DNA from: Thermospira aquatica
Lineage (GTDB): Bacteria > Spirochaetota > Brevinematia > Brevinematales > Thermospiraceae
Reading direction: 5' to 3'
NCBI RefSeq assembly: GCF_023525255.1
Contig: NZ_CP073355.1
Location: forward strand, 496,001-560,000
Length of the DNA stretch: 64,000 nucleotides
Shown: positions 4,277-20,199 of the stretch, piece after piece
How the letters are laid out: each line of letters starts with the position of its first letter
How positions within the stretch are numbered: position 1 is the first letter of the stretch
Notes under the pieces: model-generated
Database searches by the model: none
What the model saw: the letters and a program-made list of their open reading frames with translations, nothing else
What the model was told of the DNA's origin: nothing
Made by a program: the position numbers and the translations under genes

Positions 4277-6973
4277 ATGGCTGAAAAACCAAAGTACGTG
4301 TACTTTTTCGGCGGCGGTAAAGCTGAGGGTAACGGTAAGATGAAAGACCTTCTGGGAGGGAAGGGAGCCGGTCTAGCCGAAATGACAAGCATTGGATTAC
4401 CAGTACCGGCTGGCTTCACTATTACAACAGAAGTATGTGAGCTCTATTACAAAAATAACAAACAATATCCTGAGGGTCTCAAAGAAGAGGTTGAAGAACA
4501 TCTCAAAAGATTAGAAAATCTTGTTGGAAAGAAACTGGGCGACCCTGAAGATCCTCTGCTTGTTTCTGTCCGCTCGGGAGCCCCCATCTCGATGCCTGGC
4601 ATGATGGAAACCATCCTCAATCTTGGTCTCAATGACAAGTCTGTTGAAGGCCTCGCCAGAAAAACAGGCAACCGTCGGTTTGCTCTTGATGCTTATCGCC
4701 GGTTTATCATGATGTATGGATCCATTGCCATGGATGTCCCGAGGGAAGAATTTGACAAGGCCTTCGATCACATTAAGGAAACCATGACAAGAAAACGCCT
4801 CAATATCCCTCGCGGACAAAAGGTTCAGGACACCGATGTGAATGAAGAAGAGCTCGAAGCTCTCATCAAAGAATTCAAAGAGATCTACAAGCACCATGTG
4901 AAAAAAGATTTCCCCCAGGATCCTCAAGAACAGTTATGGGGGGCTATCCATGCTGTGTTTGATTCCTGGATGGCTGACAAGGCAGTTACCTACCGCAAGG
5001 TGGAAAAGATCACAGGCATTCGTGGTACCGCAGTCAATGTGGTGCAGATGGTTTTCGGAAACAAAGGAGACACCAGTGGAACAGGGGTATGTTTTACCCG
5101 CGATCCAAGCACAGGAGAAAATACCTTCTACGGCGACTTCCTCCCCAATGCCCAGGGAGAGGACGTTGTGGCAGGTATTCGAACACCTCTCAAACTCTCG
5201 GAATTTGAACGCACAAATCCCACAGCCTATAAACAGCTTGTTGAGGTACGCAAGATCCTCGAAACACACTACAAAGACATGCAGGACCTCGAATTTACTG
5301 TGGAAGAAGGCAAACTCTACATGCTCCAGTGTCGAAGTGGAAAACGTACACCGATTGCTGCTTTCAAGATCGCCGTTGACATGGTAAACGAAGGCCTCAT
5401 CACCAAAGAAGAAGCAATCCTACGTATCAGACCTCAGGATATCGAGGGACTCTTCTACCCCATCATCGACCCCTCTCAAAAAGAAGAACTCAAGAAAAAC
5501 TTCATCGTCCAGGGTATCGACGCCGTTCCCGGTGCAGCAACAGGCCGCGTTGTGTTTACAGCCAAAGAAGCTGAAGAATGGGCTGCTAAGGGAGAAAAGG
5601 TAATCCTTGTTCGACACGAAACCAGTCCCGAGGATGTGGGGGGCATGCATGCTGCTCAGGGTATTCTCACCGCTACCGGTGGGAAAACCTCTCACGCAGC
5701 GGTGGTAGCTCGTGGTTGGGGTAAGTGTTGTATCGTTGGATGTGAACAGATGACTATCGATTATAATAAGGAAGAATTTCGTGTTGGAGATATTGTGGTG
5801 AAAAAAGGTGATGAGATCACCCTCAACGGAAGTACAGGAGAGGTTTTCAAAGGAGCCATGAAATTGATCAAACCCACACCTCCCGAACAGTATTACACCC
5901 TGATGAAGTGGTGCGACGAGATCCGAAGGCTTCGTGTACGCACCAACGCTGATACCCCTTATGATGCCCAGAACGCCCTTGAGATGGGGGCTGAGGGTAT
6001 TGGTCTCTGCCGAACAGAACACATGTTCTTTGATACTGAGGAGAGACGTCTCGCTATTCAAAGCATGATCGTTGCCGATACCTACGAACAACGTGTCAAA
6101 GCCTTGGAGAAGCTTTTACCCTTCCAGAGAGAGGACTTCATAGGAATCTTTAAGGTTATGGACGGGAAACCTGTGACTATCCGTCTCATTGACCCACCGC
6201 TCCATGAGTTTGTCCCCCATGGGTGGAACGGTCAAGAGGTTCTCGCCCAGAAACTCAAGATCCCTGTCGATAAGGTTCGCCAGAGAGTGGCACAACTCGA
6301 AGAAGCCAACCCCATGCTAGGACATCGCGGATGCCGTCTTGCCATCACGTATCCTGAAATCCTTGATATGCAGGTACGGGCTATCATCGAGGCTGCCTGT
6401 GAATGTACCAAACAAGGAATCAAGGTCTTCCCTGAGATCATGGTTCCTCTCGTCATGGACAAAAAGGAATTTGAAATCCTCGAGAAACGGATCCGTGAAG
6501 TAGCAGACAAGATTCTCGAAGAGAATAAAATGAAAATTGAATACAAAGTGGGTACCATGATCGAAGTTCCCCGGGCAGCTCTGCTGGCTGACAAGATCGC
6601 TGAAAAGGCAGAATTCTTCTCATTTGGAACCAACGATTTGACCCAGATGACCATGGGACTTTCCCGAGACGATGCTGGAAGATTTCTGCCAGATTATATT
6701 GATGAAAAGAAAACAGGGATCTTCAAAGCCGATCCCTTCCAATCTCTGGACCAGGAGGGAGTCGGCTTACTCGTAAAATGGGCTATCGAAAAAGGTCGTT
6801 CCACAAGACCAAACCTCAAGATAGGAATCTGTGGAGAACACGGTGGTGACGCCGCTTCAGTGAAATTCTGTCACAAAGTAGGCATGGACTATGTCTCCTG
6901 CTCTCCTTTCCGTGTACCTATCGCAAGACTTGCTGCAGCCCAAGCAACTATTGAAGAAAAAATGGGAAAATAA
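4277..6973 (+). CDS. ppdK: Pyruvate, phosphate dikinase
   Basis: 898 residues, full family length. It interconverts pyruvate + ATP + phosphate with phosphoenolpyruvate + AMP + pyrophosphate, at the glycolysis/gluconeogenesis junction. Domain order is an N-terminal ATP-grasp nucleotide domain (about 1-350), a swivelling phosphohistidine domain with TGGKTSHAAV (catalytic His473), and a C-terminal PEP/pyruvate TIM barrel with FGTNDLTQM and the catalytic cysteine in GICGEHGG (Cys852). The ATG at 4277 is preceded by GGGAGG at good spacing. It is a single-gene unit with its own promoter and a strong terminator at 6996-7028. No PPDK regulatory protein is adjacent. Confidence 0.97.
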   Translation: MAEKPKYVYFFGGGKAEGNGKMKDLLGGKGAGLAEMTSIGLPVPAGFTITTEVCELYYKNNKQYPEGLKEEVEEHLKRLENLVGKKLGDPEDPLLVSVRSGAPISMPGMMETILNLGLNDKSVEGLARKTGNRRFALDAYRRFIMMYGSIAMDVPREEFDKAFDHIKETMTRKRLNIPRGQKVQDTDVNEEELEALIKEFKEIYKHHVKKDFPQDPQEQLWGAIHAVFDSWMADKAVTYRKVEKITGIRGTAVNVVQMVFGNKGDTSGTGVCFTRDPSTGENTFYGDFLPNAQGEDVVAGIRTPLKLSEFERTNPTAYKQLVEVRKILETHYKDMQDLEFTVEEGKLYMLQCRSGKRTPIAAFKIAVDMVNEGLITKEEAILRIRPQDIEGLFYPIIDPSQKEELKKNFIVQGIDAVPGAATGRVVFTAKEAEEWAAKGEKVILVRHETSPEDVGGMHAAQGILTATGGKTSHAAVVARGWGKCCIVGCEQMTIDYNKEEFRVGDIVVKKGDEITLNGSTGEVFKGAMKLIKPTPPEQYYTLMKWCDEIRRLRVRTNADTPYDAQNALEMGAEGIGLCRTEHMFFDTEERRLAIQSMIVADTYEQRVKALEKLLPFQREDFIGIFKVMDGKPVTIRLIDPPLHEFVPHGWNGQEVLAQKLKIPVDKVRQRVAQLEEANPMLGHRGCRLAITYPEILDMQVRAIIEAACECTKQGIKVFPEIMVPLVMDKKEFEILEKRIREVADKILEENKMKIEYKVGTMIEVPRAALLADKIAEKAEFFSFGTNDLTQMTMGLSRDDAGRFLPDYIDEKKTGIFKADPFQSLDQEGVGLLVKWAIEKGRSTRPNLKIGICGEHGGDAASVKFCHKVGMDYVSCSPFRVPIARLAAAQATIEEKMGK

Positions 6974-6995
6974 CAAAACCCGAAGAAAACCCCAC

Positions 6996-7028
6996 GGGCT
7001 GTCTCAGGAGGTGAGGCAGCCCTTTTTT
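6996..7028 (+). terminator. Rho-independent terminator of ppdK
   Basis: GGGCTG-n-CTCA pairs with TGAG-n-CAGCCC, followed directly by TTTTTT (7023-7028), 22 bases after the ppdK stop. Confidence 0.88.
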
Positions 7029-7160
7029 ATGAAACATCCCCTCGAGAAATCTGCCGGCATTTCTCAACAACAATCCAGGAAAACTCTATGGTTTCACCCT
7101 ACGTGACAAAAGTGGCTCTCTTTTCCTCACATTCAGGAAACCCATCAAGATGGAGGTGAT
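7029..7160. other. Non-coding stretch between the ppdK terminator and the first repeat cluster
   Basis: No convincing gene, promoter or RNA is seen here. Open frames are short, lack ribosome sites and show no family resemblance. The whole interval 7029-7698 is gene-free; its recognisable content is the repeat cluster at 7161-7547. Confidence 0.5.
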
Positions 7161-7547
7161 AGCTATTCCCGTGTTGCCGTCATGACAAAATACCTTTTTG
7201 CTATTACCTTGTAGCAGTGGCATTCAAAACCAGGGCGCTTGCCGTCTCTCCAGCAAAAAACAGAAAATGGGATATTCCTTTATCGCAGTCTCATCCACGC
7301 TCATTCAAAAACTGTAAAATGGTAAGAGCTTTTTCTCTGAGTTCCCCACGAAACATGTAACCAGTGTTATTCACGTTCCTAAAGATGGAGAGTTTTGATA
7401 TTACTTTTTTGCAACGAGTTTTCCCCTGGCTCTTCCCTTCTCGCAGTTATCCTTTTTACATAAGCTCTTTCGCAGGAGAAGAAATCTCTCACGTGAGTTA
7501 TTACCTTTTTACAGTGATCCCTTTTCAAAACTGTAACAGGGAAAGAG
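7161..7547. repeat. Cluster of degenerate 20-bp interspersed repeat (about 7 copies, both strands)
   Basis: Degenerate copies of the same 20-mer as in the 19544-20025 array. Forward copies are at 7161-7182 (AGCTATTCCCGTGTTGCCGT), 7200-7219 (GCTATTACCTTGTAGCAGTG), 7271-7290 (GATATTCCTTTATCGCAGTC), 7428-7445 (GCTCTTCCCTTCTCGCAG) and 7496-7515 (GTTATTACCTTTTTACAGTG). Inverted copies are at 7310-7329 and 7528-7547 (AACTGTAACAGGGAAAGAGC). A weaker forward match lies near 7395-7413. Copies are more diverged and less regularly spaced than in the second cluster. Two forward/inverted pairs (7271-7329 and 7496-7547) could fold into hairpins. Confidence 0.7.
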
Positions 7548-7698
7548 CATCGTTGCTGGCAGGAAAAAAGCCCCGACATACCATCTCTGGAGACGAAGCC
7601 TACTACAAACCCCATCTCAACGAATTTTTTCACTTTCCCTGGAAAAATATTTCACTTATACGAGTATGATGCCGTATATTAAGTAAGGGAGGAAGCCT

Positions 7699-19543: not shown

Positions 19544-20025
19544 GCTCTTCCCTTGTCGCAGTGTGCCTGTTATGTGAGCTATTACCATGTTGCAGTGAGA
19601 AGAGGGAGCTATAGCTATTACCTTGTTGCAGTGGAAAAACTCTTCCGATGCTATTACCTTGTTGCAGTGTAGAAACTGTCCTTTTGCTATTCCCTTATCA
19701 CAGTTTTACACTCTGCGCTCACACTGTAAAAAAGTAATAGCTCATGTTGAAGATTCCAGAGTAAACATCTCTCCGCATTTTGCTTATCCTACTTGAAACT
19801 TGCTTTTCCCTTATCACAGTCTTAAACTCTTTTCTTACACTCCAACATGGGAAGGACACTTTCTCCTCTCTTGAAAAATAGCTCTTCCCTTATCACAGTG
19901 AGCTGCCTCAGCTCTTCCCTTATCGCAGTAAAAACCATTGCTATTACCCTGTCACAGGGGAAAAAATCCAGCTATTCTTTTTCACAGTTGTAAATCCCGA
20001 GGTAACACTGCAACAAGGGAAGAGC
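19544..20025. repeat. Array of 13 copies of a 20-bp repeat, partly with exact 36-base periodicity
   Basis: Consensus about GCTMTTMCCYTRTYRCAGTG. Forward copies start at 19544, 19578, 19614, 19650, 19686, 19802, 19881, 19911, 19940 and 19971. Inverted copies start at 19722, 19838 and 20006. Two copies (19614 and 19650) are identical: GCTATTACCTTGTTGCAGTG. Starts 19578, 19614, 19650, 19686 and 19722 are exactly 36 apart, leaving 16-base unique spacers, and the last of these is inverted. 19802 to 19838 is again 36. Later copies are 29-35 apart. Spacers share no sequence. No gene is seen in 19385-20224. It resembles neither a classical CRISPR (repeat and spacer too short, orientation mixed) nor an integron attC array. 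Confidence 0.85.
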
Positions 20026-20166: not shown

Positions 20167-20199
20167 CTTTAAAGGCATGCATACCGCATGCCTTTAAAG
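20167..20199 (-). terminator. Hairpin terminator downstream of pheT
   Basis: A 14-bp perfect stem, CTTTAAAGGCATGC / GCATGCCTTTAAAG, with a 5-base loop, lies 26 bases past the pheT stop. On the minus strand only a short T-run (TTTCT) follows, so termination strength is uncertain. Confidence 0.65.

Follow-up and report, generated by a model that had tools for sequence, protein, structure and literature searches.

MITEs are non-autonomous derivatives of insertion sequences. Within the IS1595 family of insertion sequences, a DDE motif and an 8-bp target duplication are usual (PMC8101967). REPIN/RAYT systems combine a short sequence, dispersed in hundreds of copies that lie mostly between genes, with a single-gene transposase-like family beside which its clusters sit and with which the motif varies (PMC3116915). 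Here, we describe an intergenic cluster of a 20-bp motif from a spirochaete genome. It probably belongs, as a decaying copy without a transposase, to a family of array-ended elements whose origin is an IS1595-type insertion sequence, and we compare it with these three systems.

The window, that is, the whole 64-kb stretch of DNA analyzed, corresponds to positions 496001 to 560000 of contig C1, the single 2,515,453-base contig of the source genome (G000). A sequence-only reading of the window had placed a second cluster of the motif between the ppdK gene and a TPR gene, and had tied that claim to whether a matrix built from the array at 19.5 kb would score the cluster better than shuffled DNA. 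The matrix was derived solely from the 19.5-kb array and its 11 copies, so the test of the second cluster is not circular. It found eight copies in the ppdK-TPR gap, six on the plus and two on the minus strand, scoring 12.5 to 27.4 bits. The eight sites above 11 bits clearly exceed the shuffled sequences (mean, 0.025; maximum, 2, in 1,000 dinucleotide shuffles), and a second cluster of the same motif is confirmed. The features concerned are as follows, with bit scores of single copies taken from the 19.5-kb-array matrix.

4277 to 6973, plus strand: pyruvate phosphate dikinase (PPDK, ppdK) gene, left neighbor (Pfam PF01326, PF00391, and PF02896)
7162 to 7548, no strand: gene-less cluster found by motif scan, outermost copies inward-facing, without the transposase-like gene; absent from the equivalent junction of congeneric genome G001
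7162 to 7181, plus strand: motif copy at the left outer end of the cluster, 19.9 bits, core change at position 17
7200 to 7219, plus strand: motif copy, 27.4 bits, one mismatch to the searched 20-mer
7271 to 7290, plus strand: motif copy, 21.0 bits, core change at position 2
7310 to 7329, minus strand: motif copy, 22.8 bits, inverted relative to the 7271 copy with a 19-nt spacer
7397 to 7416, plus strand: most decayed motif copy, 12.5 bits, three core changes, below 15 bits with the genome-wide matrix
7429 to 7448, plus strand: motif copy, 24.6 bits
7497 to 7516, plus strand: motif copy, 24.0 bits, core change at position 2, inverted pair with the 7529 copy across a 12-nt spacer
7529 to 7548, minus strand: motif copy at the right outer end of the cluster, 21.5 bits
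7699 to 8646, plus strand: TPR-like protein gene, right neighbor (TPR_1 and TPR_14, both slightly under the Pfam cut-offs)
19544 to 20025, no strand: second gene-less cluster in the window, 11 copies above 15 bits, bounded plus to minus, highest mean score of 43 clusters

The cluster lies 12.0 kb from the 19.5-kb array, as had been estimated, and takes up only part of the gap (7162 to 7548 of 6974 to 7698) that it was said to fill. The original count of about seven copies on both strands was right as to the strands; the number is eight, or seven when a genome-wide matrix is used and copies above 15 bits are kept. The cluster had also been described as older or decaying. Decay is indicated by its mean score, the sixth lowest among 43 clusters with at least four repeats, and weakly by core changes, which affect four of the eight copies (three of the seven above 15 bits) versus 34% of the 646 other copies that exceed 15 bits, a small difference; greater age would be one interpretation of that decay. 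No direct repeat was found at the tips of the cluster (7162 and 7548). When the cluster itself served as query, it gave 12 short matches besides itself. An Rfam search across the 64-kb window returned two tRNAs and nothing else. At 20167 to 20199, 3′ of the phenylalanyl-tRNA synthetase beta gene, the window holds a perfect inverted repeat whose 14-base arms stand 5 bases apart.

In the 2.5-Mb genome, a strict pattern of the motif, whose consensus we summarize from the motif table as WGCTMTTMCCTTRTYRCAGT, has 427 matches, and the reversed control pattern has none. The proposal that the family is dispersed and not the result of local duplication holds, for a family much larger than the window could show. 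Our sample comprises stretches fetched around matches plus the window. It covers 364 strict matches, leaving 63 of the 427 outside, and contains 653 copies above 15 bits; all cluster counts are counts within this sample. Both window clusters are purely intergenic, as had been stated, but across the sample 65 of the 653 copies fall inside open reading frames (ORFs) of at least 120 aa, which were picked mechanically and some of which may be spurious. The scan for further clusters and their gene context, suggested by the sequence-only reading, ties the family to a transposase-derived gene: of 46 sampled clusters, 16 contain the gene and 30 are gene-less. One of the 30 is a detached cluster part, counted there because about 2 kb of other DNA interrupts a gene-bearing element (C1 1558684 to 1560753; the query regions matched by the two parts overlap by 5 bases, as an insertion would leave them).

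Most clusters are bounded by inward-facing copies. The outermost copies are arranged plus to minus in 33 of 46 clusters, plus to plus in eight, minus to minus in four, and minus to plus in none, and one cluster begins with the gene (binomial P = 1.4e-11 for end polarity across 45 clusters). Of the gene-less clusters, 20 of 30 run plus to minus; the gene-bearing element is their putative autonomous partner. Copies 5′ of the gene mostly point inward (157 of 181), and 3′ of it orientation is mixed (71 of 135 inward, 64 outward). A palindrome, TTAAACGTTTAA, or most of it, occurs within or beside motif clusters (L041 2259 to 2270; G000 C1 161271, 1309276, and 1327049).

Because the arrays are built of short units, plain functionless tandem repeats or products of slippage might be invoked. 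This is the least probable of the explanations that we weighed. Neighbors in the same direction, which make up most neighboring copies, are separated by diverse spacers (169 distinct in 389 instances), copies lie on both strands, and tandem neighbors are no more alike than shuffled ones (15.23 versus 15.23 of 20 positions; 281 pairs); the polarity of cluster ends and the constraint on the motif core, described below, also count against it. Very improbable, too, are REP-like hairpin elements moved as single strands. Spacers of 14 to 18 nt do recur between facing neighbors (41 of the 68 distinct spacers not exceeding 60 nt) and between most inverted pairs in the stretches read from a second congeneric genome, G002; outward-facing neighbors are rare in that range (15 distinct). 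However, the arms of inverted pairs are less complementary than shuffled partners (14.41 versus 15.01 of 20 positions over 68 distinct pairs, without correction for descent), the predominance of tandem neighbors is not what such elements would give, and the flanked gene matches the IS1595 type, with no Y1 or HUH match among the Pfam and NCBIfam matches. The unmatched arms speak against a hairpin or RNA-structure reading of the motif.

The IS1595-type transposase-like gene occurs at 16 places in the genome, all within motif clusters; 13 copies are open and full length (92 to 100% identical to the query protein) and three are broken. In the two copies scanned, the zinc ribbon PF12760 (Zn_ribbon_IS1595) exceeded its Pfam cut-off (E = 2.5e-11 and 3e-9), PF12762 (DDE_Tnp_IS1595) scored 23 to 24 bits, under its cut-off of 27, and the NCBIfam IS1595 model NF033547 scored 63 bits, under its cut-off of 75. 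Searched against the whole genome at E up to 10, PF12762 revealed no IS1595 gene besides these 16 places and exceeded its cut-off at only one of them, a broken copy.

We aligned 33 and then 35 related proteins and counted columns from the printed alignment. In the group containing the resident proteins, eight rows from Brevinematales and eight from Paenibacillus or Cohnella, the first catalytic aspartate (D1) is missing in 15 of 16 (L075 keeps it) and the second (D2) in all 16, with L069 having an Asp one column off D2. The 19 other rows, Paenibacillus filicis L083 included, keep D1 in 18 cases and D2 in 16. Locus L138 has an open 260-aa frame without D1 or D2. A structure model of a Cohnella relative (mean pLDDT, 67.7; 42 to 50 for the other four models), has a zinc ribbon, then helices, and then a strand-helix order that we name RNase-H-like. 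Its first Foldseek match was the ISCth4 transposase (E = 2.3e-3), followed by others that included retroviral integrases, all above E = 0.001; a sequence search of solved structures gave three matches (best E = 0.33), none convincing. Judging from the alignment, the resident proteins seem to have lost the cutting residues.

If so, a different, catalytically competent transposase could be spreading the arrays through the same sites, an account to which the missing residues and the presence of other insertion-sequence-like genes near arrays both lend something. We regard it as improbable, since the genome search for DDE_Tnp_IS1595 yields the 16 places only and since the form of the motif tracks the IS1595-like gene in both G000 and G002. 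A second dispersed element of about 1.4 kb, often near motif clusters, was recorded at eight places on C1 (36075 to 37514, 40359 to 41772, 227471 to 228880, 577282 to 578748, 782583 to 784007, 1402395 to 1403834, 1816715 to 1818108, and 2370529 to 2371918); where read, it carries an ORF of 385 to 410 aa that looks integrase-core-like by eye.

Whatever its role, the 266-aa IS1595-like protein is under purifying selection, given a dN/dS ratio of 0.11 among the 13 intact copies (mean dN, 0.028; mean dS, 0.25). The sites appear constrained as well. Core columns vary less than spacer columns in three sets of aligned paralogous gene-less arrays (8 of 187 versus 66 of 297) and in gene-bearing arrays (9 of 225 versus 130 of 582), counts that are uncorrected for relatedness of rows; of the five rows of gene-less set A, one comes from a gene-bearing cluster, and two or more share a duplicated neighborhood. 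At the loosely defined motif positions, variation exceeds that of the spacers in four of five sets, the 3′ set being the exception with less. The core signal is partly ascertainment, because copies are recognized by their score; the core-versus-spacer contrast persists when a column is counted as motif if any row was called.

Duplication of larger segments is also evident. A 4.6-kb inverted duplication, 97.7% identical, joins C1 432500 to 437061 and 1341431 to 1346007 and includes a gene-bearing motif cluster, and two gene-less clusters (at 39.3 and 423.6 kb) share similarity that extends well past the array. A domesticated protein that no longer moves DNA might explain the family: the arrays would be its binding sites in the genome and serve the host, for instance by insulating genes or bridging loci that lie far apart, with selection keeping the present copies and segmental duplication and recombination spreading them. 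These duplications would fit, as would the absence of D1 and D2 across the group, the purifying selection, the constrained core sites in gene-less arrays, and the lack of target duplications reported below. We nevertheless consider domestication unlikely, if far from negligible. Hugely different copy numbers among congeneric genomes and the three broken gene places of 16 fit a mobile family better than a host system, and the window cluster is missing from the matching junction in G001.

That junction has the same order as in the window, with the end of ppdK, a terminator-like hairpin, and the TPR gene, and its gap is 247 nt versus 725 here, 478 nt shorter. The outer parts of the G001 gap align to the window (scores 33 and 38 versus shuffled maxima of 22 and 23), whereas the window cluster does not align to it (23 versus a shuffled maximum of 25), and the 3.9-kb junction locus in G001 has no motif and no site above 1.4 bits. 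The alignable parts stop near 7032 and restart near 7623, which leaves the edges of the extra DNA unplaced; the G001 junction is therefore not a clean empty site, and the difference reflects either a gain of the cluster here or its loss in G001. The gene preceding the TPR gene in G002 is a different one, and that stretch has no motif.

G002 has instead three full-length related genes, 42 to 44% identical, flanked by a motif variant of their own (GCTATTACC..RTTTCAGC) whose copies stand in related order. Strict matches to the G002 form number 266 in G002, five in G001, and two in G000, and matches to the G000 pattern number 427 in G000, two in G002, and one in G001. Each matrix scores its own copies far above those of the other genome: the G000 matrix gives G002 copies 15.0 bits versus 26.8 for its own, and the G002 matrix gives G000 copies 8.9 versus 28.7. 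G001 has two related genes yet few motif copies (five of the G002 form), and a related gene without D1 or D2 in G007 has no array within the flanks covered.

Direct marks of transposition were sought at the cluster ends. Across the 33 clusters bounded plus to minus, no target-site duplication emerged beyond chance (best mean match, 0.37, versus a null maximum of 0.39 in 100 permutations). In 52 long matches between gene-bearing clusters, which provide 104 ends, similarity stopped no more than 2 bases from a motif copy's outer tip in 36 cases and equally close to its inner tip in 19, was 3 to 9 bases off either tip in 24, and ended elsewhere in 25. These counts favor outer tips only mildly, and such breakpoints are not specific for transposition, because recombination between arrays would end there too. 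In the 40 nt outside these same clusters, purines make up 58% on the left and pyrimidines 60% on the right, a bias that is absent 200 nt farther out in 44 clusters and that possibly represents a target preference.

Taken together, we favor a decaying gene-less member of an array-ended, IS1595-derived element family as the explanation of the window cluster. The motif would be the recognition site of the IS1595-like protein, with its zinc ribbon and helix-turn-helix, and arrays of sites would jointly act as element ends. Inward-facing sites could then bound a mobile segment, and gene-less clusters might be moved or copied in trans. As for the chemistry, the protein without D1 and D2 may have an unrecognized active site, another enzyme may do the cutting, or the spread may lie in the past, through an ancestor or recombination, with the protein today merely binding its arrays. 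On sequence evidence, we hold that the motif is a recognition site more firmly than that the segments are mobile. The missing D1 and D2, the absent target duplications, the many breakpoints away from outer tips, the unplaced edges at the G001 junction, the mixed 3′ orientation, the partly biased constraint test, and the exceptions in G001 and G007 all weigh against the favored explanation.

Related arrangements extend to Paenibacillaceae. Cohnella nanjingensis, from a second phylum, has 43 matches, in clusters, of a motif of its own, TATCCCNTTCGNTCAG, and six other genomes searched with this pattern had 6, 0, 1, 0, 0, and 4 matches. Ten places with more than one match were fetched, three single matches being excluded; nine of the ten clusters are inward-bounded, two of them enclosing a related gene (L203 and L209), and the tenth meets a contig end. 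A rough screen of the 900-nt flanks, using five mononucleotide shuffles for each locus, found at least five copies of a 16-mer at 11 of 16 group loci versus 2 of 19 others (L078 and L085); three of those 11 are simple tandem repeats. Group members without a flank array are L129 and L130, three to four copies occur at L135, L065, and L066, and Paenibacillus profundus has a weak shared motif. We rejected the arrays of P. ferrarius (L069), P. psychroresistens (L075), and P. apiarius (L063) as the same architecture, as they are simple tandem repeats of other sequence, lying beside the related genes at L075 3291 to 3592 (26 bases), L069 1996 to 2243 (about 26), and L063 1745 to 2190 (86).

Across spirochaetes and Paenibacillaceae, we tentatively suggest a broader pattern, which is a serious possibility rather than a probable one: a transposase relative with a DDE fold but no catalytic aspartates may be kept alongside dozens to hundreds of putative binding sites that co-evolve with it and are clustered in arrays, whether the system is mobile or genome-organizing, as a DDE-type counterpart of RAYT/REPIN that works on double-stranded site arrays. 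If this is true, transposase-derived proteins can lose their chemistry and yet retain genome-wide arrays of co-evolving binding sites, independently of the RAYT/REP route. Protein-site specificity, mobility, and host function can all be put to a direct test with the gene, its motif, and a sister species whose motif has diverged, and junk-like intergenic repeat clusters become explicable from the rest of the genome.

A literature search of partial coverage returned no title or abstract describing these arrays. With the IS1595 zinc-ribbon group, the family shares Zn_ribbon_IS1595, a C-terminal QRYLDEFCFRFN stretch, and the RNase-H-like fold of the modeled relative. Its putative ends, however, are long arrays of a 20-bp motif in place of one pair of terminal inverted repeats; the outermost copies are inverted in 33 of 46 clusters, but as members of arrays. 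Compared with the IS1595 features given in PMC8101967, the 8-bp target duplication was not found here, and D1 and D2 are missing. As judged from sequence, the family is IS1595-derived but, by its catalytic residues and target duplications, falls outside IS1595. Like MITEs, its gene-less copies bear the inverted ends of a presumed parent and are dispersed between genes; unlike MITEs, they have a variable number of internal sites and no target duplications that we could find, and the presumed parent enzyme lacks catalytic residues. With REPIN/RAYT (PMC3116915) it shares the hundreds of clustered, mostly intergenic copies of a short sequence beside a single-gene transposase-like family, and the joint variation of motif and gene. 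It differs in that the gene is of the IS1595 type and not a tyrosine (Y1, HUH) transposase, in that inverted arms are not selected to pair, and in its long one-way arrays. The family thus resembles RAYT/REPIN in layout but is not a member of it.
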